From an uncultured archaeon (lineage in GTDB: Archaea > Thermoproteota > Nitrososphaeria > Conexivisphaerales > CALBHZ01): DNA of 18,710 nucleotides. Below the pieces are notes generated by a model. That model had not been told where the DNA came from, ran no database searches, and saw only the letters and a program-made list of their open reading frames with translations. Shown here one piece after another: positions 1 to 14,220 of this stretch. Made by a program: the position numbers and the translations under genes. Position 1 is the first letter of the stretch, and each line of letters begins with the position of its first letter. The stretch lies in assembly GCA_937892815.1 (NCBI GenBank), contig CALBHZ010000237.1, forward strand, positions 1-18,710, in the 5' to 3' direction.

Positions 1-136
1 CGATTCTCCTTATCACAGCATCTTGGAGTTGTCCTGAGCTTAAAAATTCCTCTTTCGTTACTCCCCTCGTATATTCTTCTATTCTTTCTATGCACTCTAG
101 AATATGCTCGATGAAGATTCTTGGATCCTTCTTCAT
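1..136 (-). CDS. HEPN-domain (HepT/DUF86-type) protein, N-terminal part only
   Basis: Reading in from the right, an ATG at 136-134 opens a frame that is still open at the window edge (45 codons). It begins MKKDPRIFIEHILECIERIE and continues with EEFLSSGQLQDAVIRRI, the typical first two helices of DUF86/HepT HEPN proteins. The catalytic R-x4-6-H motif of HEPN ribonucleases would lie in the missing part. The ATG overlaps the stop of the upstream nucleotidyltransferase as ATGA, so the two are translationally coupled. In known MntA-HepT pairs HepT is an RNase toxin that the nucleotidyltransferase modifies with AMP on a tyrosine; that role is inferred here from family and pairing. Confidence 0.8.
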   Translation of the reverse strand, partial: MKKDPRIFIEHILECIERIEEYTRGVTKEEFLSSGQLQDAVIRRI

Positions 137-420
137 AGTATCACTTTTTGCTCTTGTAAAATTCTGTCTCTAAGCAAAGGATGTAGTGAATTGTAAGTTA
201 GAACGTCTACCCTTCTTCCTAAAGCTTCTTCCAATTCTATTTTCAGTCCTGCAAGATCGAGTAAGCTTTTCTCGCTTTTAAACTCGACAAGAATGTCTAT
301 ATCGCTATCTTCTTTCTGTTCCCCCCTAACAAAAGAACCGAAAAATGCAGCCCTGTTAACATCGTAACGTTTCAGTATCGGAATAATCTTGTACTTTATT
401 TCTTCTAACTCCATATTCAT
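133..420 (-). CDS. MNT-type minimal nucleotidyltransferase (MntA-like antitoxin)
   Basis: This 95-residue protein has the minimal nucleotidyltransferase fold signature: GSF at about residues 28-30, then an acidic segment DSDIDILVEF at about 39-48, giving the G-S-x9-11-D-x-D metal-binding motif. A third acidic residue lies in RRVDVLTY near residue 72. Length is normal for the family. Partners of this type transfer AMP groups to the adjacent HEPN protein and so silence its RNase. The HEPN gene follows with an ATGA overlap. An A/T-rich TATA-like element at 443-454 lies 23-34 bases upstream of the ATG, consistent with a leaderless two-gene transcript. Two starts are possible (M1 and M3); M1 is used because it fits the TATA spacing. 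Confidence 0.85.
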   Translation of the reverse strand: MNMELEEIKYKIIPILKRYDVNRAAFFGSFVRGEQKEDSDIDILVEFKSEKSLLDLAGLKIELEEALGRRVDVLTYNSLHPLLRDRILQEQKVIL

Positions 421-1942: not shown

Positions 1943-1967
1943 AAACACGTAAGGAAAAAAGCGATTG

Positions 1968-2717
1968 ATGCAGGTGTTAGAGTTCGATAGAGAACAGGCG
2001 ATTAGACATCTCTCCACAATCTGGAGTGGATATGAAGGAGAAAATTGGTTTGAAATAAGGATCATCCCTCTAGATAGGAGGCAAGGATGGCCCATAGTGA
2101 AGTTCTTTAAGGATGTGGAAGGAGCGGTGGAATGGATTGATGAAAACTGGAACAAGTTAAGGCTTTATGAAAAACACGTGTTCTACGGTGTTCTTCCAAG
2201 GTGTAGGTTGCCTAAGAAAGGGGGGAGAAGCGAAGATGTAAAGTGGGCGAGGACGTTCTTTTGTGATCTGGATTATCATAAGGAAATGAGGTTAATCGAA
2301 GCTTTAATCGACGGAAAAGTAACTGAGGAAGATTTAAAGAGAGAAAGGGAAGACTTCATAGTTCAAGAAAACAAGGTAGTTTTTATAGATAAGCCCGCTC
2401 TTGAGAAGGTCCTTAGACATGTGGAGACGAAAATGGGTATGAAACCGCAGCTCGTTATAGATAGCGGACACGGATACCACTTGTATTTCATATTGAAGGA
2501 GACAATAGATGTAGAAGAATGGTACTTAACGCAAAGCTCGTTGATAAATAAGTTAGGAGGAGATGAGAAAACTAAAGATCCCGCTAGATTGTTAAGGGTT
2601 GCGGGAACTTGGAACCTAAAGTATAGATCTAAACCCGTAAGTTGTAGAATTGCGTATATTGAAGAGGGGGAAGTTAGCATCGATATCGTTAAAGAGGGGT
2701 TATCTAAGCTTAGCTAA
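1968..2717 (+). CDS. stand-alone archaeo-eukaryotic primase (RepB-primase/PrimPol type)
   Basis: This protein of 249 residues (250 if the adjacent TTG at 1965 is used) shows the three AEP-superfamily motifs in order. Numbered from the TTG start, they are an acidic pair D101-x-D103 after the strand ARTFFC, a S-G-H-G-Y-H segment at 167-172, and a third acidic residue D205 in KDPARLLRVAGTWN. The segment YGVLPRCRLPKKGGRSEDV before motif I is typical of replicon and virus primases. Known relatives make RNA or DNA primers for plasmids, viruses or repair. Most such primases are fused or linked to a helicase; here the protein stops after the catalytic core and no helicase or replicon gene adjoins it. 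It could be a domesticated repair PrimPol or a remnant of an integrated element. Confidence 0.8.
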   Translation: MQVLEFDREQAIRHLSTIWSGYEGENWFEIRIIPLDRRQGWPIVKFFKDVEGAVEWIDENWNKLRLYEKHVFYGVLPRCRLPKKGGRSEDVKWARTFFCDLDYHKEMRLIEALIDGKVTEEDLKREREDFIVQENKVVFIDKPALEKVLRHVETKMGMKPQLVIDSGHGYHLYFILKETIDVEEWYLTQSSLINKLGGDEKTKDPARLLRVAGTWNLKYRSKPVSCRIAYIEEGEVSIDIVKEGLSKLS

Positions 2718-4680: not shown

Positions 4681-7500
4681 ATGGCTAGAGATGTCTTCTC
4701 CCTCTTAAGCCCTTTGCTACAGGACATGTTGCTGGAGAGGGGATTCAGAGAGCCTACCGAGACCCAAAAAGCATCGATGGAGTACGTCGCCAAGGGTGAA
4801 AATGTACTAATTGTTGCCCCTACCGGATCAGGGAAGACGGAAGCCGCTTTTCTTCCAATTTTAGATAAAATGTTAAAAGAAGGAAGGGCTTCGGGTATTA
4901 GGCTTCTCTACATCACTCCCCTTAGGGCTTTAAATAGGGATTTAATTGAAAGGTTTGAATGGTGGTGTAAGCGTTTAGATCTCAGACTTGCGGTAAGACA
5001 TGGCGATACTCCGGCTATTGAGAGGAGACGGCAATCCTTAATTCCTCCCGATATATTGATAACTACTCCTGAGACCTTACAAGTCCTCTTAGTAGCTAGG
5101 AGGTTAAGGGAAAGCCTAAGGAACGTTAAGTGGGTTATTGTAGATGAAATCCATGAACTCGCCTCAGATAAAAGAGGAGCTCAGTTAGCTATAGCCCTAG
5201 AAAGACTAAGGAGGATTACCAAGGAGGAATTTCAAAGGATAGGGCTATCGGCTACTGTAGGAAACGCCGAAGAAGTTGCGAGATTCCTCGTCGGAATAGG
5301 TAGAAAATGTAAAATCGTTAAAGTAAGGGTACCTAAGCCCTTCGAGTATAGAATAGTATACCCTCAACCTAAGGAAAGAACAGATACACCTATACATCCA
5401 GTAGCCTTAGCAAGAATGGACGTCATCCTACAGTTGCTTCCAAAGGGACCTATTCTAGTTTTCACAAATACTAGAAGTGAAGCAGAGGCCTTAGCGAGTA
5501 GGCTCAGACTTTTGCATCCGAGAGCGCCTGTAAGCGTTCACCACGGTAGCCTTTCAGCTGAAAGAAGGGGCATGGCTGAATCGGGGCTTAGGCTAGGCAA
5601 CTTAAAAGGGGTGATATGTACGAGTAGCTTAGAGCTGGGAATAGATATCGGTACGATAAACTTGGTTGTTCAATACAACTCCCCAAGACAGGCCTGTAAG
5701 CTATTGCAAAGGGTAGGCAGAAGCGGGCATTCTTTGACTAAGGTGAGCCGAGGAGTTATCATAGCTCAAGATGGAGATGATGTCTTAGAAGCAATGGTCT
5801 TAGCTAGAAGAGCTCTTGAGGAGGAAGTAGAGCCTATTACCATACCGAACAAACCCCTAGATGCGCTAGCTCAACAGCTAGCTGGGTTAGCAATGGAAGA
5901 TATGGTGATGAAGGTTGAGGACGCTCTCCACTTGATAAGGAGAGCGTATAATTACAGGGATGTCAGTAGAGAGGAAGTAGAGCGTGTACTAGAATTCCTT
6001 TCGGATAAAAGGCCTCAAGTGATTAGGTTTTCAGAAGGCGCTTTCTTCCGACCTTCTAGGCAGGAGAAGCTGTACAAATATTACTTCCAAAACTTAAGCA
6101 TGATCCCAGAAGAGAAACAGTACCCGGTAATTACCGAAGATGGCAAGGTAGTAGGGGTTTTAGATGAGGCGTTTATCGCTGAGTACGGAGAAATAGGTAC
6201 TAAATTTGTTTTAGCCGGAAATGCTTGGATAATTACGCAGATATTCAGAGGAACCGTTTACGTTAAAGAGGCCGAGGATCCCTTAGGAGCCATACCGAGC
6301 TGGATAGGAGAGGAAATACCGGTCGTAGAGGAAGTCGCAAAAGAGGTAGGAGCTATAAGGAGAGAGGTAGAGGATGGGGTAAAGCGTGGAAAGTTAAGAG
6401 AGGTATTGGAAGGTTTAACGCGCAAATATCCGATAAGCTATAACGATTTACTTGAAGGCGTTAAGGAAATTATTGAGCAAGCTGAGAAGGGATATCCCGT
6501 TCCTAGCGATACTTTAGTGACGATCGAGAAAGTCGACGAATACGTAGTACTACATACTCATTTAGGTTTAAAGGCCAATCGTACCTTAGCTAGGATTTTA
6601 GCATATGAAATGAGCAGGGAAACTGGAAAGGCTATTTCAGTTAAAAATGATCCATATAGGATTGTTCTTGAATGTAGAGGATTGAGCTCAGACGACGTCT
6701 TAAGGACGCTGCTTAACTTAAAGAGCGTGGATATCGAGTCTAGAGTTAAGGAAGCATGCGAAGAAACCGGGTTGTTTAGGAGGAGATTAGTTCAAGCTGC
6801 TAGGAAGATGGGCGTTATAGAAAAGGAAGCGGATATATCCGGACAAGAAGTTAAGCTGCTAGCATCTACTCTCAAGGGAACGGTTGTGTATCAGGAGGCA
6901 ATGAGAACTCTTCTAGAAGAGGATCTCGATGTGAAGGCGATATACAGGTTTCTAAAGGACGTTTCGGCTAAAAGAGTAGTCGTAAAAAATCTAGGAAAGT
7001 TAAGCGCTCCCACCCCTATCGCTAGAATTGGGCTTGAGGAAATGGCGGTAAGAGGAGAGTTGATAGATCCGGGAAGAATGAAGAGATTGCTAATTGAAAG
7101 CGCGAAAGCTAGAATAGATGGATGTAGGAAGACGCTAGCTTGTCTATCTTGTTGGTCTGCAACGGAAGTAATAGTTGGAGAGCTAGAGGATCCGCCACGT
7201 TGTCCACGGTGTAAATCCTTAAACATATCGGTAGTTGACGAGGGAGTTGAGATCGTAGAGATAGTTCTCAGTAGGATGAGAAGGAAGGCTTTAATGCCGC
7301 TAGGAATGAAGAGGCTCGCTAATAAAATAGAAAAGGTTAGGAAATTGATCGCGGAGCACGGAAAGATAGCGGTTGAAGGGTTATGTTTTAAGGTCAACTT
7401 GAACAGATTGAAGAAGATGCTAGAAAAGAAGGTTGGAGATGATCTGCTTTTAGCTCTATTAGAAGAGGAGAGAAAGGCTATCTTGAGAAGGTTTAAGTGA
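4681..7500 (+). CDS. lhr: Lhr-family superfamily 2 helicase with C-terminal Cys4 motif
   Basis: This 939-residue ATP-dependent helicase has the SF2 motifs in order. They are Q-motif TETQ (26-29), Walker A APTGSGKT (46-53), Ia TPLRALNRDL (79-88), TTPETLQ (128-134), DEIH box VDEIHEL (154-160), LSATVGN (189-195), LVFTNTRSEAE (about 259-269), SSLELGIDIG (about 315-324) and QRVGRSGHS (about 341-350). A long Lhr-type C-terminal part follows. It contains a probable zinc site, C815, C821-x2-C824 and C841-x2-C844. Archaeal Lhr proteins unwind DNA:RNA and branched DNA and are tied to repair and recombination. It could be aLhr1 or aLhr2; the Cys motif may favour aLhr1. The gene converges on the SMC-like operon with one base between stops. 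Confidence 0.93.
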   Translation: MARDVFSLLSPLLQDMLLERGFREPTETQKASMEYVAKGENVLIVAPTGSGKTEAAFLPILDKMLKEGRASGIRLLYITPLRALNRDLIERFEWWCKRLDLRLAVRHGDTPAIERRRQSLIPPDILITTPETLQVLLVARRLRESLRNVKWVIVDEIHELASDKRGAQLAIALERLRRITKEEFQRIGLSATVGNAEEVARFLVGIGRKCKIVKVRVPKPFEYRIVYPQPKERTDTPIHPVALARMDVILQLLPKGPILVFTNTRSEAEALASRLRLLHPRAPVSVHHGSLSAERRGMAESGLRLGNLKGVICTSSLELGIDIGTINLVVQYNSPRQACKLLQRVGRSGHSLTKVSRGVIIAQDGDDVLEAMVLARRALEEEVEPITIPNKPLDALAQQLAGLAMEDMVMKVEDALHLIRRAYNYRDVSREEVERVLEFLSDKRPQVIRFSEGAFFRPSRQEKLYKYYFQNLSMIPEEKQYPVITEDGKVVGVLDEAFIAEYGEIGTKFVLAGNAWIITQIFRGTVYVKEAEDPLGAIPSWIGEEIPVVEEVAKEVGAIRREVEDGVKRGKLREVLEGLTRKYPISYNDLLEGVKEIIEQAEKGYPVPSDTLVTIEKVDEYVVLHTHLGLKANRTLARILAYEMSRETGKAISVKNDPYRIVLECRGLSSDDVLRTLLNLKSVDIESRVKEACEETGLFRRRLVQAARKMGVIEKEADISGQEVKLLASTLKGTVVYQEAMRTLLEEDLDVKAIYRFLKDVSAKRVVVKNLGKLSAPTPIARIGLEEMAVRGELIDPGRMKRLLIESAKARIDGCRKTLACLSCWSATEVIVGELEDPPRCPRCKSLNISVVDEGVEIVEIVLSRMRRKALMPLGMKRLANKIEKVRKLIAEHGKIAVEGLCFKVNLNRLKKMLEKKVGDDLLLALLEEERKAILRRFK

Positions 7501-7501
7501 A

Positions 7502-8035
7502 CTAAGTTTCCTTAGCCTTAGATATTATGTCCTTTAGAAGGCCCGGCTCGTCTATCTCTACGATCATCCTCCATCCCTTCCTCAAGATATCTCCGTCTTC
7601 TTCGATGTAATTAAGCCTCTTCAGCTTATCGATTATCTGCTTCACCCTCCAGCTAGGCAGTTTCTGAGTTAGTATCCTCTCTACCGTCTTCCTTTGAACC
7701 ATTCCCCCTCTTAAGTTAAGCTCTACGTCTATTATAGCGAGAGCTGCGGCCTCTTCGATTCTAAGCCACTTACTAAGTTCGGCTTCTCGCAAAGGCTCTT
7801 TAGGCTGTAACACATACCTAGCCTTTTCAGGCGATTTGTCCTCTTCATCTTCTACCTTCACTATCCTAAGGCCCAGCTTATCGGCCTCTACCTTAGCTAC
7901 CTCTAAAGCGGCTAAGTAGTCCTTACCAAGCCTCCTTTTGAGCTCCCAACCTTTTAGCCCGGGAGTTGATCCCTCGAAGAGGAGCATTTTTAAGGCTTTA
8001 ATACCCTTCTCCCTAAGCTCTTCTTCCTCTCCCAA
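7502..8035 (-). CDS. tandem winged-helix kite-like subunit (ScpB / Nse3-MAGE-like)
   Basis: This 177-residue protein is the last gene of the SMC-like operon. It reads as two winged helices. The first (about 8-80) has GIKALKMLLFEGSTPGLKG, a helix LAALEVAKVEADKLGLRIVKV and a closing strand ARYVLQPKE, like the first half of ScpB and other kite proteins. The second (about 92-162) has EEAAALAIIDVELNLRGGMV, then WRVKQIIDKLKRLNYIEED and a strand pair GWRMIVEI, the order seen in MAGE/Nse3 wHB domains. The start is TTG at 8035, chosen because GGTGAG lies 6 bases upstream; it overlaps the preceding gene by 23 bases. In known SMC complexes kites bind the kleisin linker as dimers and touch DNA. Assignment is by pattern and context; a plain DNA-binding regulator is the alternative. 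Confidence 0.6.
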   Translation of the reverse strand: MGEEEELREKGIKALKMLLFEGSTPGLKGWELKRRLGKDYLAALEVAKVEADKLGLRIVKVEDEEDKSPEKARYVLQPKEPLREAELSKWLRIEEAAALAIIDVELNLRGGMVQRKTVERILTQKLPSWRVKQIIDKLKRLNYIEEDGDILRKGWRMIVEIDEPGLLKDIISKAKET

Positions 8036-8741
8036 TCTCGCTCACCTCTATCGCTATGCTGAAGGGTTCTCCTTTTCCGGGCTTTAATATCAAGATGGTT
8101 TTAGTTAGAGGCTCCTTCTTCAAAGCTATCTTCCCTATGGTAGCTAGATACCCCAGCAAAAAGGCCTTCTCTAGCCTCTCTTTCTCGGGAAACCTCGATA
8201 GGTATGAACGATAATCGATTGGGCCTCTCTCTAGTAGCGACATCAATTCCTCGTATAGTTTATTCGCTTTCTCTTTCACGCTTTCAGGGGTTAAGCTCAG
8301 AGGCTCCGTAGTTAAATCCTTATAAGCTATAGGAGCGGGCTCCTCGTAACTACCCCATGGTCTTACTGCTTCCCAGTAAGTTAAGCCGTCTCTTAACCTT
8401 TCGATCGATATCCTCTTTAGCCCTATAATTGGGTAGAAGTTTTTAGAAAGTGCGCTAGAGATCTCCTTTAAGCTGAGCTTCTCGATCTTTTCCCTCACTA
8501 AATCCGGATCTACCCTTAGCCCTCTTAACGCATCAACTACCCACTTTTCCTGCATTTCAACGATTTTAGATACGGAATTCAAAGCTTTAGAATCGAGCTT
8601 TAAGAGCTCTACGTTCCTCCTCTTCCTCTTTAGCTTCTCTAAAAGATCCCTAACATCGACTAAAAATGGATCGGCTCCGCTCCTCTCCAGCTCTCTAGGG
8701 AGGTCGATTATCCTTTCCCGTATCAGCTTATCTTGCCTCAC
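8013..8741 (-). CDS. kleisin-like subunit (Nse4-like) of the SMC-type complex
   Basis: This 242-residue protein has a helical N-terminal region (about 1-75) with RDLLEKLKRKRRNVELLKLD, resembling the V-x-x-R-E-x-x-L-D block of Nse4 that contacts the Smc neck. A middle stretch has a conserved-looking TYWEAVRPWG (121-130). A small C-terminal domain reads as a winged helix: RLEKAFLLGYLATIGKIALKKE (189-210), then two strands ILILKPG and FSIAIEV. Kleisins use exactly these two ends to bridge a pair of SMC heads. The start is GTG at 8741, with GGTGG about 6 bases upstream. It overlaps the SMC gene by 14 bases, so expression is coupled. I do not recognise a named family by direct similarity; the kleisin call rests on layout, partial motifs and operon position. 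Confidence 0.55.
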   Translation of the reverse strand: MRQDKLIRERIIDLPRELERSGADPFLVDVRDLLEKLKRKRRNVELLKLDSKALNSVSKIVEMQEKWVVDALRGLRVDPDLVREKIEKLSLKEISSALSKNFYPIIGLKRISIERLRDGLTYWEAVRPWGSYEEPAPIAYKDLTTEPLSLTPESVKEKANKLYEELMSLLERGPIDYRSYLSRFPEKERLEKAFLLGYLATIGKIALKKEPLTKTILILKPGKGEPFSIAIEVSEIGRGRRA

Positions 8742-10566
8742 GACTTACCACCTTTAACTCGCTTCCCCTAACCGTTTTCTGCACCATAATGTAATGAACG
8801 TCGGGATCGAAAAATGGAGGGAATCCGGGAGATATTACGATATACTGTACGTCCTTTTCCTCTTTAAAGTAGGAATGTATCGCTTTAAAGAACAGTTCTC
8901 TATTTACGGGATCCATGTGAACATCGAATTCGTCTACGGCTCTAAACGGAGATAACACGTGTTTTTGCGTCGCTAAAAGGAAGGCCATGACCGTAGAGCT
9001 TTTCTCTCCACCGCTTTGGGTATAGGCATCTAGTGTAACTAGAGGGGTGCCCTTAGCTCCTACCTTCAGGACTAATCCCGCTTTATCCGGCTCCTCCTCG
9101 TTAATTAGCTCAACGTGACCATGAGTATTTAAGGTACTTAAAATAGCTTGGAATTCCCGATCGATGCTTTTTAAAAGGCCCTTTATTACGGCTCTCCATT
9201 CCTCGCTCCTTTCAGCTATCTCCTTTAAAGTCGCTCTCTTATTTTCCTTAACCCGCTCTAGCTTAGCTCTATATTCCTCTATCTTGCTCTTTAAATCCAA
9301 ATACGCTTTTTCAGCCTCCTCAGCTACCGCCCCTATAGCTCTAAGCTGTGCTAAGATGGCCTTCTCTTCATCTTCTACTTCAGTTAAGCTTCTTACTTCA
9401 CTAGGTCTTTTCCCTATCCGTTCAGCGCTTTCCCTTTCCCTCTCTAATTCCTCCTCTACCTCCCTTATCTCCCTTCCAAGCTTCCTCATATCCGATTTGA
9501 TTTGGTTTATTCTGTACTTCGTAACCTCCAGCTTTCCTTTCATAATAGCTAGGAGCTCAGCTACCTCGGGAATGGAGCTTAGTTTTCTAGAAAAATCGGA
9601 CAGCTTTCTAGATAGTTTCTTTTCTTCTTCCTCACTCGTAGAGGAGCTGGCGCTTAGATATCCTATTTTTCTAGCCATTTCTTGTATAGGACCGAGGTCT
9701 TCGATGAGCTGATTTACCGTTACGTTCAACTTATCCATTACGCTTTCATATTCCCTCTCTTCATCTAACGATCTAAGTTCTAGCCTACGTAGTTCGGTCT
9801 CCAGTTTCCCTCTCTTTTCTTTTAAGTTAAACAATGTCTTTTCGAGCTTATCGACTAAAGCCCAGGCCTTCTCTACCCTCACTTCTTCGAGCCTCTTTTT
9901 TAACCTCCTATACTCGATAAGCCTTTCATACTGCTCTCTCCATTTCTCCATGGATTCAGTAGCTTTTTCTAAAAGGCTCTGATACTCTTCCTCATCCTTT
10001 AGGATGTTTTCCAACCTCTCCTTTGCCTCCTTTAAATTCTCCCTTATCGATGCAATTCCAACGGCTTCCTCTACCATTCTCAGCTTTTCTTCTGGAGACA
10101 TAACGATGAATTTATCGATAAAGCCTTGAGGCATTATAATTAAGAGGTTCTCCGGATTTAACCCCAGCTTTCTTAAAGTCTCGACTACCTCAATTTTAGA
10201 TACCTCCTTGTAATCTATTTCAAACCAGTAGCTACCATCCTTCCTAATGTATCTGGATAATAAAACCGTATCCTTCTTGTACGGAAGAGGCCTCTTTCCG
10301 TTCACGGGGGAGTTATCTAACACTAACGTTACCCTCGCTATCTCCTTTCCTCTCCTAACTAGATCTGAAAGTTTCTTCGCTCTTTCAGTAAACGATTGTC
10401 CTAAAGCAACGGATATTCCTATTAGAATCGTCGACTTGCCGGCTCCATTTGGCCCAACAATTACGTTTAAGCCGGGCTTAAACGTAATTCTTCCATACTC
10501 ATAGCTCATGAAGTTCTCCAGTATTACCTCTCTTATGAAGGCTCTACCTTCGCTCACTTCCCTCAC
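8728..10566 (-). CDS. short SMC-type ATPase, Smc5/Smc6-like heads
   Basis: This 612-residue protein is an SMC-superfamily ATPase without any cysteine. The N-terminal head has Walker A GPNGAGKST (38-46), after ENFMSYEYGRITFKPGLN, and a Q-loop MPQGFIDKFIVMSPEE (145-160). Heptad-rich, charged helices follow, about 172-280 and 315-470. The C-terminal head has the signature QSGGEKSS (517-524), Walker B PFRAVDEFDVHMDP (540-553, catalytic E546) and QYIVISPGF (574-582). The Q-loop block and Walker B resemble Smc5 (LPQ..x..FAxMSPIELL and PFRVVDExxxxMDPxNER) and Smc6 (DEFDVxMD). Canonical SMCs are about twice as long; no hinge domain or zinc hook is visible between the coils. The start is GTG with a TATA element 26 bases upstream. 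Alternatives are a Rad50-like or coalescin-like SMC relative. Confidence 0.85.
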   Translation of the reverse strand: MREVSEGRAFIREVILENFMSYEYGRITFKPGLNVIVGPNGAGKSTILIGISVALGQSFTERAKKLSDLVRRGKEIARVTLVLDNSPVNGKRPLPYKKDTVLLSRYIRKDGSYWFEIDYKEVSKIEVVETLRKLGLNPENLLIIMPQGFIDKFIVMSPEEKLRMVEEAVGIASIRENLKEAKERLENILKDEEEYQSLLEKATESMEKWREQYERLIEYRRLKKRLEEVRVEKAWALVDKLEKTLFNLKEKRGKLETELRRLELRSLDEEREYESVMDKLNVTVNQLIEDLGPIQEMARKIGYLSASSSTSEEEEKKLSRKLSDFSRKLSSIPEVAELLAIMKGKLEVTKYRINQIKSDMRKLGREIREVEEELERERESAERIGKRPSEVRSLTEVEDEEKAILAQLRAIGAVAEEAEKAYLDLKSKIEEYRAKLERVKENKRATLKEIAERSEEWRAVIKGLLKSIDREFQAILSTLNTHGHVELINEEEPDKAGLVLKVGAKGTPLVTLDAYTQSGGEKSSTVMAFLLATQKHVLSPFRAVDEFDVHMDPVNRELFFKAIHSYFKEEKDVQYIVISPGFPPFFDPDVHYIMVQKTVRGSELKVVSREAR

Positions 10567-13113: not shown

Positions 13114-14220
13114 TTAACTTAAAGAAAATAGCTTAGAAAGTCTTTTTAGAATTAGCTTTTTATCTTCAGATCCGAGCTCTAAAGCCTCTATAACTTCTCT
13201 TAAATAGGAAATCGTCCTCTCATAGGTTCTCCTATCTACGGGATACGGAACGCCGTCCTTACCTCCGTGCGCGAATGAGTACTTGACAGGATCTCTCCAG
13301 CTGGGTTCCTCTCCGTAGATCAGCTCAGATGCGAGCGCTAAAGCCCTAATCGTTTTAGCTCCCACCCCTTTAAAGAGGAGCAGTTCTTCGTAGTTCTTAG
13401 GCTGATACTCGTATAAAGCCTTAAGCTTCGCCCAGTTTACATCCATTGGCATTCTAAAGCCCTCGATAACTACCCACTCCCTACTCACTTTACCCGTCCA
13501 GCTATCGATGGGCTTAACTCTTAGTTGAAGGCGTTTAAGAGCCGTTAAGGCGCTTATATCTCTAGCTATATCAACGCTCGCTCTCCTAGCTCCTTCCGAT
13601 TCCCTCGCTACCATGTTCAGTACCGGTTTATTCGATTTATATCCTACAATGCCCGAGTGCGGTTCGTTCACCATATCCCTTATCTTGAAGCTAACCCAAT
13701 GATACCTTCTCGCTAACCTATTTTCAGGGTTCATGCCTTGTTGGATTACGGCCCAATCCCCGTCTTCCGTAGCTATAAAGGCGTGATGGTAGAGGCCGTA
13801 TCCAGCCTGTATAGCTACGGAATCAACCTTGGCTGTAAGCCTACTAGCCCTTACCCACTCCTCTAGCTTAGAGCTGCTTATGTTGAATGAGTTAGCTATT
13901 TCCTCTATTTGTTCAGGAGTTTTCTTGGCCATTGCCTTCCCTCCAGCTACCATTACTCCGAGATCTCCCTTTGAGAGAGCGCTCCTCAAAACGCCGGTAG
14001 TTACCGTAGTTAGCCCGCTACTATGCCAATCGAAGCCCAATAAACAACCGAAGGCCTGAAACCAAAAGGGATCCGATAGCTTTTCCAGAAAGCCTCTCCT
14101 TCCCTGATCCTCTATTATTAAGTACGCTACTTGATAGGAAAGCTTTTTCATTTTATCGACTAACCATTTCGGAGCCTTTCCCCAGTGTAGCGGTAGCTCA
14201 GTAAATCCTGTTGGTCTCAT
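13114..14220 (-). CDS. DUF763 family protein with C-terminal helix-hairpin-helix
   Basis: This 368-residue protein matches the archaeal/bacterial DUF763 family from its first residues (TGFTELPLHWGKAPKWL). It has the GGKAMAKKTPEQIEEI segment, a HHAFIATEDGDWAVIQQGMN block, and EPHSGIVGYKSNKPVLNMVA. Near the C-terminus KNYEELLLFKGVGAKTIRAL, followed by ALASEL, is a helix-hairpin-helix DNA-binding motif. The histidines and acidic residues suggest a nucleic-acid enzyme, but no activity is established to my knowledge. A TATA-like TTTATTTAAC on the minus strand (14241-14250) lies 21-30 bases upstream, so it is probably leaderless. Confidence 0.9.
   Translation of the reverse strand: MRPTGFTELPLHWGKAPKWLVDKMKKLSYQVAYLIIEDQGRRGFLEKLSDPFWFQAFGCLLGFDWHSSGLTTVTTGVLRSALSKGDLGVMVAGGKAMAKKTPEQIEEIANSFNISSSKLEEWVRASRLTAKVDSVAIQAGYGLYHHAFIATEDGDWAVIQQGMNPENRLARRYHWVSFKIRDMVNEPHSGIVGYKSNKPVLNMVARESEGARRASVDIARDISALTALKRLQLRVKPIDSWTGKVSREWVVIEGFRMPMDVNWAKLKALYEYQPKNYEELLLFKGVGAKTIRALALASELIYGEEPSWRDPVKYSFAHGGKDGVPYPVDRRTYERTISYLREVIEALELGSEDKKLILKRLSKLFSLS

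Follow-up and report, generated by a model that had tools for sequence, protein, structure and literature searches.

Three overlapping genes on the minus strand of the 18,710-nt window (the whole stretch of DNA analysed here) very probably encode an un-duplicated Smc5/6-type SMC-kleisin-kite machine, a reading to which we assign a probability of roughly 0.85. A third, minimal SMC-kleisin-kite machine had been proposed from the letters of the DNA, in what is called here the sequence-only reading, and it is supported by family profiles, by the predicted kite fold and by conservation of the trio. The three ORFs, their recognisable parts and one neighbour are placed in the window as follows:

4681..7500, plus strand: convergent Lhr-type DEAD/H helicase, a neighbour outside the operon (Pfam DEAD, Helicase_C, WH_Lhr, DEAD_assoc)
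7502..8035, minus strand: Nse1/Nse3-type kite with predicted tandem winged helices, 177 aa, start TTG
7556..7759, minus strand: kite winged helix 2, residues 93-160 (secondary structure of model)
7802..8029, minus strand: kite winged helix 1, residues 3-78 (secondary structure of model)
8013..8741, minus strand: Nse4/ScpA-type kleisin, 242 aa, start GTG (family profile, Pfam Nse4_C, model)
8082..8288, minus strand: kleisin C-terminal winged helix, residues ~152-220
8523..8741, minus strand: kleisin N-terminal helical domain, residues 1-73 (profile match, model helices)
8728..10566, minus strand: compact, Smc5/6-related SMC ATPase, 612 aa, start GTG (Pfam, NCBIfam, family profile)
8908..8949, minus strand: Walker B / D-loop PFRAVDEFDVHMDP, SMC residues 540-553 (translation, family alignment)
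8995..9018, minus strand: ABC signature QSGGEKSS, SMC residues 517-524 (translation, family alignment)
9172..10014, minus strand: inter-lobe coiled-coil hairpin, SMC residues ~185-465, boundaries approximate (conservation, no hinge found)
10432..10455, minus strand: Walker A GPNGAGKS, SMC residues 38-45 (translation, family alignment)

The SMC and kleisin genes overlap by 14 nt (8728-8741) and the kleisin and kite genes by 23 nt (8013-8035), just as first described, and the GGTG-type site proposed for each downstream start is likewise present, in the stretches ...aaaggtggtaagtcGTG and ...tagaggtgagcgagaTTG. This operon is not a chance arrangement, since at 73 of 80 related loci an adjoining SMC gene is followed by those for kleisin and kite. 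These loci, from which the kleisin and kite families were also built, are the best 80 of 331 from a scan of sampled archaea, with Asgard lineages lying outside it. In six of the other seven the kleisin-kite pair is found elsewhere in the same genome, and in one the contig is incomplete. In a 200-genome sample of the phylum, the kite is present in 90 of 91 kleisin-bearing genomes, within 100 nt in 88; the 91 are the 96 matching genomes less five whose hits are all weak (E 5e-5 to 8e-4). The weak-hit regions of ten other genomes each hold an ScpA-like ORF beside an ScpB-like one, and of four of these ScpA proteins checked in Pfam, three match SMC_ScpA and the fourth Rad21_Rec8 only, weakly. There is a single kite per genome in 89 of the 90 genomes, and two fragments of one in the 90th. 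The three genes are kept together as a conserved unit, and the check proposed on their neighbourhood thus came out in favour of the machine.

The first gene encodes what by its motifs is an intact SMC ATPase with short predicted coiled coils. The motifs cited in the sequence-only reading (GPNGAGKS, MPQGFIDKFIVMSPEE, QSGGEKSS, PFRAVDEFDVHMDP and ISP) can all be found in the translation, and in an alignment of 38 family members, including that of the window, the Walker A positions G38, P39, N40, G41, G43, K44 and S45 are invariant, as are Q147, G520-E521 and D545-E546. The signature resembles the QSGGER carried by human and yeast Smc5, and at the Walker B / D-loop human SMC6 has SPFRCLDEFDVYMDMVNR. 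Pfam SMC_N matches the window SMC at E 1.6e-32, and its top NCBIfam model is SMC_prok_A, with 241 bits, under the 729-bit cut-off of that model. The profile HMM check suggested for a Smc5/6-like ATPase gave its best scores on Smc6 (219 bits) and Smc5 (198 for yeast, 181 for human), followed by canonical SMC (172) and Rad50 (44), so that by family profile the SMC is nearest Smc5/Smc6, as the head of a Smc5/6 complex should be.

By sequence, the window SMC is apparently without a detectable hinge, a point that had been missed. Pfam SMC_hinge has no match in it at a limit of E 1 or in two relatives at a limit of E 0.1; in the canonical SMC of its own genome it scores 56 bits. At most 4 of the 38 family members match SMC_hinge, since it does not appear in the list of 25 families that most members match. 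Conservation has a minimum around residues 260-380, with no conserved block there. The distance from Walker A to signature is 459-557 aa in the 38 aligned members (overall length 582-678 aa), compared to 1044-1060 in 11 canonical SMCs.

The second protein, described as kleisin-like, holds up as such by family profile and by its N-terminal helical domain and C-terminal winged helix. The top PDB match of the profile is Nse4 (E 1.4e-4), and with a limit of E 1 Pfam Nse4_C is matched by 36 of 60 family members, at best with E 5.7e-6; the kleisin of the window, searched as a single sequence, gives no match to it. Profile positions 6-76 match the archaeal ScpA N-domain 6ivh_A (E 0.0033), and the AlphaFold single-chain model (pTM 0.42) has helices at 2-21, 30-37 and 44-73. 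Foldseek matches this model to Nse4 at a TM-score of just 0.22, and by VIA the C-domains of ScpA and Scc1 rank first. Canonical ScpA controls match ScpA/RAD21 by profile and never reach Nse4. An Nse4-type kleisin, as in the Smc5/6 complex, is thus indicated by the family profile, the 36 members and, at low TM, Foldseek.

The kite-like partner also stood up, as a predicted tandem winged-helix fold (AlphaFold single-chain model) that agrees with Nse3 and is nearest Nse3/Nse1; the sequence signal by itself is weak, with Nse3 the best solved match of the family profile at E 0.014 only. Of 64 kite family members, 7 match Pfam MAGE and 11 match Sec61_beta, the latter with weaker E values, and MAGE has no match to the window's own kite as a single sequence. 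SMC_ScpB, which gives 121-135 bits with three canonical ScpB proteins, has no match to the kite of the window within a limit of E 1, and canonical ScpB controls match ScpB by profile without ever reaching Nse3. Nse1 has a RING domain and the kite does not, because the 177-aa protein ends after its second winged helix.

Relatives of the Lhr-type helicase are convergent with the trio at distances of up to 400 nt in 27 of 66 loci tested. The upstream neighbour, which has a BFN domain, is nuclease-named. Elsewhere the same genome encodes a canonical SMC of 1169 aa with a hinge, in addition to the window SMC, and a separate Rad50 with CPVC. No match to Pfam ScpA was found in it, so the canonical system or the assembly may be incomplete.

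Head trees were built with SMC3 represented by its N-lobe only and with Smc1, Smc2, Smc4, ASRP and arcadin-4 left out. In the first, a single N-lobe Rad50 on a long branch joined Smc6, and a clade of the family with Smc5 and Smc6 was absent; this Rad50 was replaced in later trees by eight two-lobed ones, and the clade was recovered in four runs with such outgroups. Its support in three of them is 14.8/61, 11.6/44 and 98/87, weak in two; the fourth, under LG+C20, has the same clade in a tree without support values. Rad50 lies outside SMC in the best tree (98.9/98), so the ATPase did not fall firmly within Rad50/SbcC, the outcome named beforehand as counting against the proposal. The further suggestion, that the machine stands near the ancestor of Smc5/6, fits these results and falls short of proof. 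AU tests were made on the best tree plus five constraints (six trees) and with a Smc5/Smc6-sister constraint added (seven trees). By these, rival head placements appear borderline: family + canonical SMC + SMC3 and family + Rad50 have p 0.081 with six trees and 0.036-0.039 with seven, and neither is rejected by p-KH or p-SH.

It seems unlikely that the operon is a shortened paralogue of canonical archaeal SMC-ScpA-ScpB whose resemblance to Smc5/6 is due to convergence or profile bias. Such a paralogue would account for the ranking of the window SMC as a single query, which puts canonical archaeal SMC (116.6 bits) above SMC5 (108.2), but with the family profile Smc6/Smc5 chains score 9 to 47 bits more than canonical SMC. 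The borderline grouping with canonical SMC and SMC3, when forced, is joined by a zero-length branch, and the AU test rejects placing the family with canonical SMC alone (p 0.018 with six trees, 0.009 with seven). The kleisin C-terminal winged helix does align with canonical ScpA by profile (probability 95.9); against this, hhalign finds no alignment of kite and ScpB (probability 1.0), and the ScpA/ScpB controls fail to reach Nse4 or Nse3. An anti-phage or anti-plasmid SMC system, Wadjet- or Lamassu-like, is less credible still: kleisin and kite are without a defence match better than E 0.02, no relatives of the window BFN protein are found in the ORFs of the best 80 of 331 related loci, and the kite, which among the sampled genomes turns up in 19 from family f6 and 15 from f11 (kite-bearing genomes only), looks like housekeeping. 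A relative of archaeal Rad50, Arcadin-4 or ASRP (coalescin/Sph) with unrelated neighbours, which the short SMC, weak NCBIfam matches (Rad50 84 bits, ASRP 48, arcadin-4 37, all far under the model cut-offs) and the borderline AU value for family + Rad50 might suggest, is very improbable given the lack of CxxC in all 38 family members aligned, the separate CPVC-bearing Rad50 of the same genome and an ML tree that splits SMC from Rad50 (ASRP and arcadin-4 being outside it) and lets them be forced together through a zero-length branch only.

In an un-duplicated Smc5/6-type machine, two identical SMC heads would sandwich two ATPs, and a single kleisin would bridge the heads, with its N-domain on one neck and its C-winged-helix on the other's cap. 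The kleisin middle (~residues 79-150) may bind one or two kites, which would help clamp DNA atop the engaged heads. With arms of perhaps 140 residues (~20 nm, an estimate), clamping or bridging DNA at junctions, damaged or stalled sites would be likelier than a hinge-closed ring extruding long loops, because the arms are short and the hinge is missing. The machine would act alongside the canonical SMC of the same genome, with no replacement, and we infer a role in DNA repair or chromosome folding, to which the Lhr-type helicase neighbour adds indirect context only.

More tentatively, and as a possibility rather than a probability, pre-eukaryotic archaea may have had a complete Smc5/6-type machine built from a single kind of SMC, kleisin and kite, later duplications giving Smc5/Smc6 and Nse1/Nse3 and the archaeal hinge being lost or never present. 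If so, the archaeal version must hold DNA through its heads, kleisin and kite alone; as an SMC-kleisin-kite complex without a hinge, it would be a natural choice of minimal model for the clamping of DNA. The single-copy archaeal trio would offer a tractable minimal system in which to study DNA clamping by Smc5/6 and any need for a hinge, and with it one could test in what order SMC and kite were duplicated in early eukaryotes.

The relationship of the SMC itself to Smc5/6 was probably already published in 2021. An archaeal "SMC5/6-related" SMC is credited to Yoshinaga and Inagaki (2021) in passages of PMC9389158 and PMC10003631, and the window family, compared by description only, is probably this one. 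The archaeal SMC is grouped with SMC5 and SMC6 in PMC9389158 (MLBP 100, BPP 0.99 for the sub-clade), where kleisin has 0 mentions. The literature searched yielded no account of a source for Nse4 and Nse1/Nse3 among prokaryotes. A 2024 preprint is said to treat the origins of SMC complexes in prokaryotes, and archaeal partners of the Smc5/6 kind may already be described there.

Among known systems, Rad50/SbcC differs in its CxxC zinc hook, present in 8 of 8 Rad50 controls (identified by their likeness to the Rad50 of the genome that holds the window) and in 0 of 38 family members, and for ASRP (coalescin/Sph) the window SMC has 48.2 bits with NF045487, for which the cut-off is 300. The cognate partners and effector nuclease of Wadjet/Lamassu are not seen in the trio, the likeness to MukBEF and Wadjet JetABC is weaker than to Nse3/Nse1, and none of the genes next to the trio in the window is recognised as JetD-like. 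Canonical archaeal SMC-ScpA-ScpB has the SMC-kleisin(-kite) plan and the kleisin C-terminal winged helix in common with the trio, and differs in its full-length hinged SMC and ScpB-family kite; according to the available parts of PMC7055376, six tested archaeal ScpA proteins fail to bind putative ScpB and archaeal SMC is generally kite-less. The eukaryotic Smc5/6 complex, which safeguards chromosomes in human cells, has two different SMCs, with hinge, and two different kites, whereas the archaeal operon has a single gene for each of the two; its SMC family has no detected hinge, and the spacing of its ATPase motifs is apparently half the canonical one. By family profile it is nevertheless to the Smc5/6 core (Smc5, Smc6, Nse4, Nse1, Nse3) that the SMC head, the kleisin and, weakly, the kite each match best.

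The three genes are minus-strand ORFs that overlap by 14 and 23 nt, bearing out the single overlapping operon described in the sequence-only reading, and a GGTG-containing stretch precedes each of the two downstream starts, as it had also noted:

10566–8728, minus strand: SMC ATPase, 612 aa
8741–8013, minus strand: kleisin (middle gene), 242 aa
8035–7502, minus strand: kite (third gene), 177 aa

The first is an SMC-type ATPase (Pfam SMC_N, E 1.6e-32). Its best NCBIfam match is SMC_prok_A (241 bits), with Rad50 at 84 and ASRP at 48, all under the model cut-offs. Searched as single sequences against Pfam and NCBIfam, the kleisin and kite ORFs gave no convincing match. A profile of the 38 aligned members of the SMC family (relatives of the window protein, itself included) was compared with PDB chains, giving 219 bits for Smc6 (human 212), 198 for Smc5 (human 181), 172 for canonical SMC, 160 for SMC2, 139 for SMC3, 134 for SMC1, 126 for SMC4, and 44 for Rad50. 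As a single query, the window SMC scores higher with canonical SMC (116.6 bits) than with SMC5 (108.2), and that of a Methanophagales locus (L064) higher with Smc5 (99.8) than with canonical SMC (86.6). Of the motifs singled out earlier, the Smc5-like signature and the DEFDV of Smc6 both hold up: QSGGE is also found in Smc5, and SPFR-DEFDV-MD is common to the window SMC and human SMC6. Catalytic residues are invariant across the 38-member alignment, CxxC is absent from 38/38, and no conserved block was found in the middle of the hairpin. SMC_hinge was not found in the three members scanned singly, and at most four of the 38 could match it.

PMC9389158 reports that “SMC5/6-related” archaeal SMC forms a sub-clade with SMC5 and SMC6 (bootstrap 100), and the idea recurs in PMC10003631. 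The window SMC probably belongs to this published group. No description of archaeal Nse4 or Nse1/Nse3 relatives was recognized in a literature search judged by titles and the beginnings of abstracts. A 2024 bioRxiv preprint (10.1101/2024.01.07.573240) may describe such relatives.

The main head tree (45 sequences, 376 columns, eight Rad50s as outgroup) separates SMC from Rad50 at 98.9/98 (branch support values) and has a canonical SMC plus SMC3 clade at 77.3/95. The family groups with Smc6 at 98/99, and with Smc5 and Smc6 together at 14.8/61. In thirty-sequence runs the latter clade has 11.6/44 (LG+F+I+G4) or 98/87 (LG4X), with changes in internal order; it was not recovered in the first run, which included just one Rad50, as its N-lobe. 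An alternative with Smc5 and Smc6 as sisters and the family sister to both differs from the best tree by 0.6 log units and is equally likely (AU p 0.53). Forcing the family together with canonical SMC plus SMC3, or with Rad50, costs 14.8 log units and gives zero-length branches, so that both reduce to a single unresolved tree (AU p 0.081 with six trees, 0.036–0.039 with seven). Placement with canonical SMC without SMC3 was rejected (AU p 0.018 and 0.009). Overall, the head tree is consistent with Smc5/6 kinship but does not prove it, because the eukaryotes are represented by just five sequences.

A genome-contig scan with the window SMC gave 331 related loci; the analysis covers the best 80. 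By label, Thaumarchaeota/Nitrososphaeria and Bathyarchaeota predominate among these, alongside Hecatellales, Methanomethylicota, and others; Methanophagales and “Methanosarcinales” are also present and fall outside that group. Two labels look wrong: L086 (“Nitrosotalea”), whose SMC and its genome's kite are close to Methanophagales ones, and L037 (“bacterium clean1925”), whose trio is thaumarchaeal-like. Kleisin relatives are found on 74 of the best 80 loci and kite relatives on 73. Taking first possible starts, SMC and kleisin overlap, or the kleisin starts within 5 nt, in 67/74; at L018 the kleisin-kite pair is 2.7 kb downstream. Seven loci are without a complete pair, among them L079, which ends inside the kleisin. 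No partner gene was found next to the SMC in L058, L064, L072, L076, L077, and L086, and in all six of these genomes the kleisin and kite genes are adjacent to each other at another place.

Among 200 sampled genomes of the window's phylum, the kleisin occurs in 91 (96 matches less five weak-only) and the kite in 90, always on the kleisin's contig (within 100 nt in 88, 1.9 kb apart in two). The 91st kleisin (genome G136) reaches to 6 bases from the contig end, on the side where a kite gene would be expected. The kite is absent from many sampled genomes, including 20 listed genomes of family f2 in the window's class; among 148 genomes from the phylum of the Methanophagales-labelled genome G201, it is found in 16, one of them partial.

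Recurrent neighboring genes include:

4681–7500 of the window: Lhr-type helicase, convergent to the trio
L042:2662–3438, minus strand: ~230-aa protein, divergently encoded, example copy

Of the 66 loci that have all three genes and >1.5 kb of flank, 27 have a convergent Lhr-type helicase within 400 nt, and in the L072 genome the kleisin-kite pair, parted from its SMC, still adjoins one. This neighbor hints at DNA repair, and proves nothing. The ~230-aa protein gene in many loci lies upstream of the SMC gene in divergent orientation (its cluster spans 43 loci; 41 copies lie upstream and on the minus strand); one copy scanned had no Pfam match at 0.001. A metallophosphoesterase-like gene is also found upstream of the SMC (L019:6425–7324, minus strand; cluster of 24 loci; Pfam Metallophos E 9e-4, below cut-off); such enzymes accompany Lhr-type helicases. 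For the window's upstream BFN-domain gene, no relative was found among the best 80 of 331 loci. Near separated kleisin-kite pairs, there is a RuvC gene in the L077 genome, labelled Methanosarcinales (L160:8284–8811, plus strand), and region L155 has an aconitase-family gene ahead of the pair, with similar genes in L157 and L160. The window itself also holds a 250 aa ORF that by eye resembles a primase-like domain and has no Pfam match at 0.001 (1965–2717, plus strand), a DUF763 protein (13114–14220, minus strand; Pfam E 1e-124), and a small ORF (133–420, minus strand) with a nucleotidyltransferase-like GSF...DSDID motif of the kind found in minimal nucleotidyltransferase genes.

In SMC complexes, ATP engages the heads, the kleisin bridges neck and cap, and kites bind kleisin and DNA. 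The trio may thus form an ATP-gated DNA clamp built from two identical SMCs. A classical closed ring would probably not form because the hinge is lacking, unless the coil tips dimerize. The action of the complex may be local, like that of Smc5/6 at junctions.

The window's own genome also encodes a canonical SMC with hinge, a ScpB-like gene, and a CPVC-bearing Rad50 adjoining an ORF that resembles Mre11 by eye; no Pfam ScpA match was found in this assembly, which is 86.7% complete. Weak kleisin matches in ten other genomes are ScpA-like ORFs directly adjoining ScpB-like ORFs (four ScpA-like and three ScpB-like ORFs in a Pfam check of the ten pairs), so both systems coexist in trio-bearing genomes. 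A profile of the ten ScpA matches ScpA/RAD21/Scc1 (24 rows, 0 Nse4), and one of the ten ScpB matches ScpB (13 rows, 0 MAGE or Nse). The ten regions, L145–L154, come from genomes that have canonical SMC partners, and in each the ScpA-like ORF sits next to, or almost next to, the ScpB-like one. Archaeal SMC is argued in PMC7055376 to be generally kite-less; this model, from other archaea, may fail in the L145–L154 genomes because of these adjoining ORFs. Compared with canonical SMC-ScpA-ScpB, the trio's SMC family has a far shorter Walker A-signature gap (459–557 residues vs. 1044–1060, n = 11), and its kite fails to align with ScpB (hhalign probability 1.0); its kleisin and ScpA have the C-domain in common, over 74 columns at an hhalign probability of 95.9.
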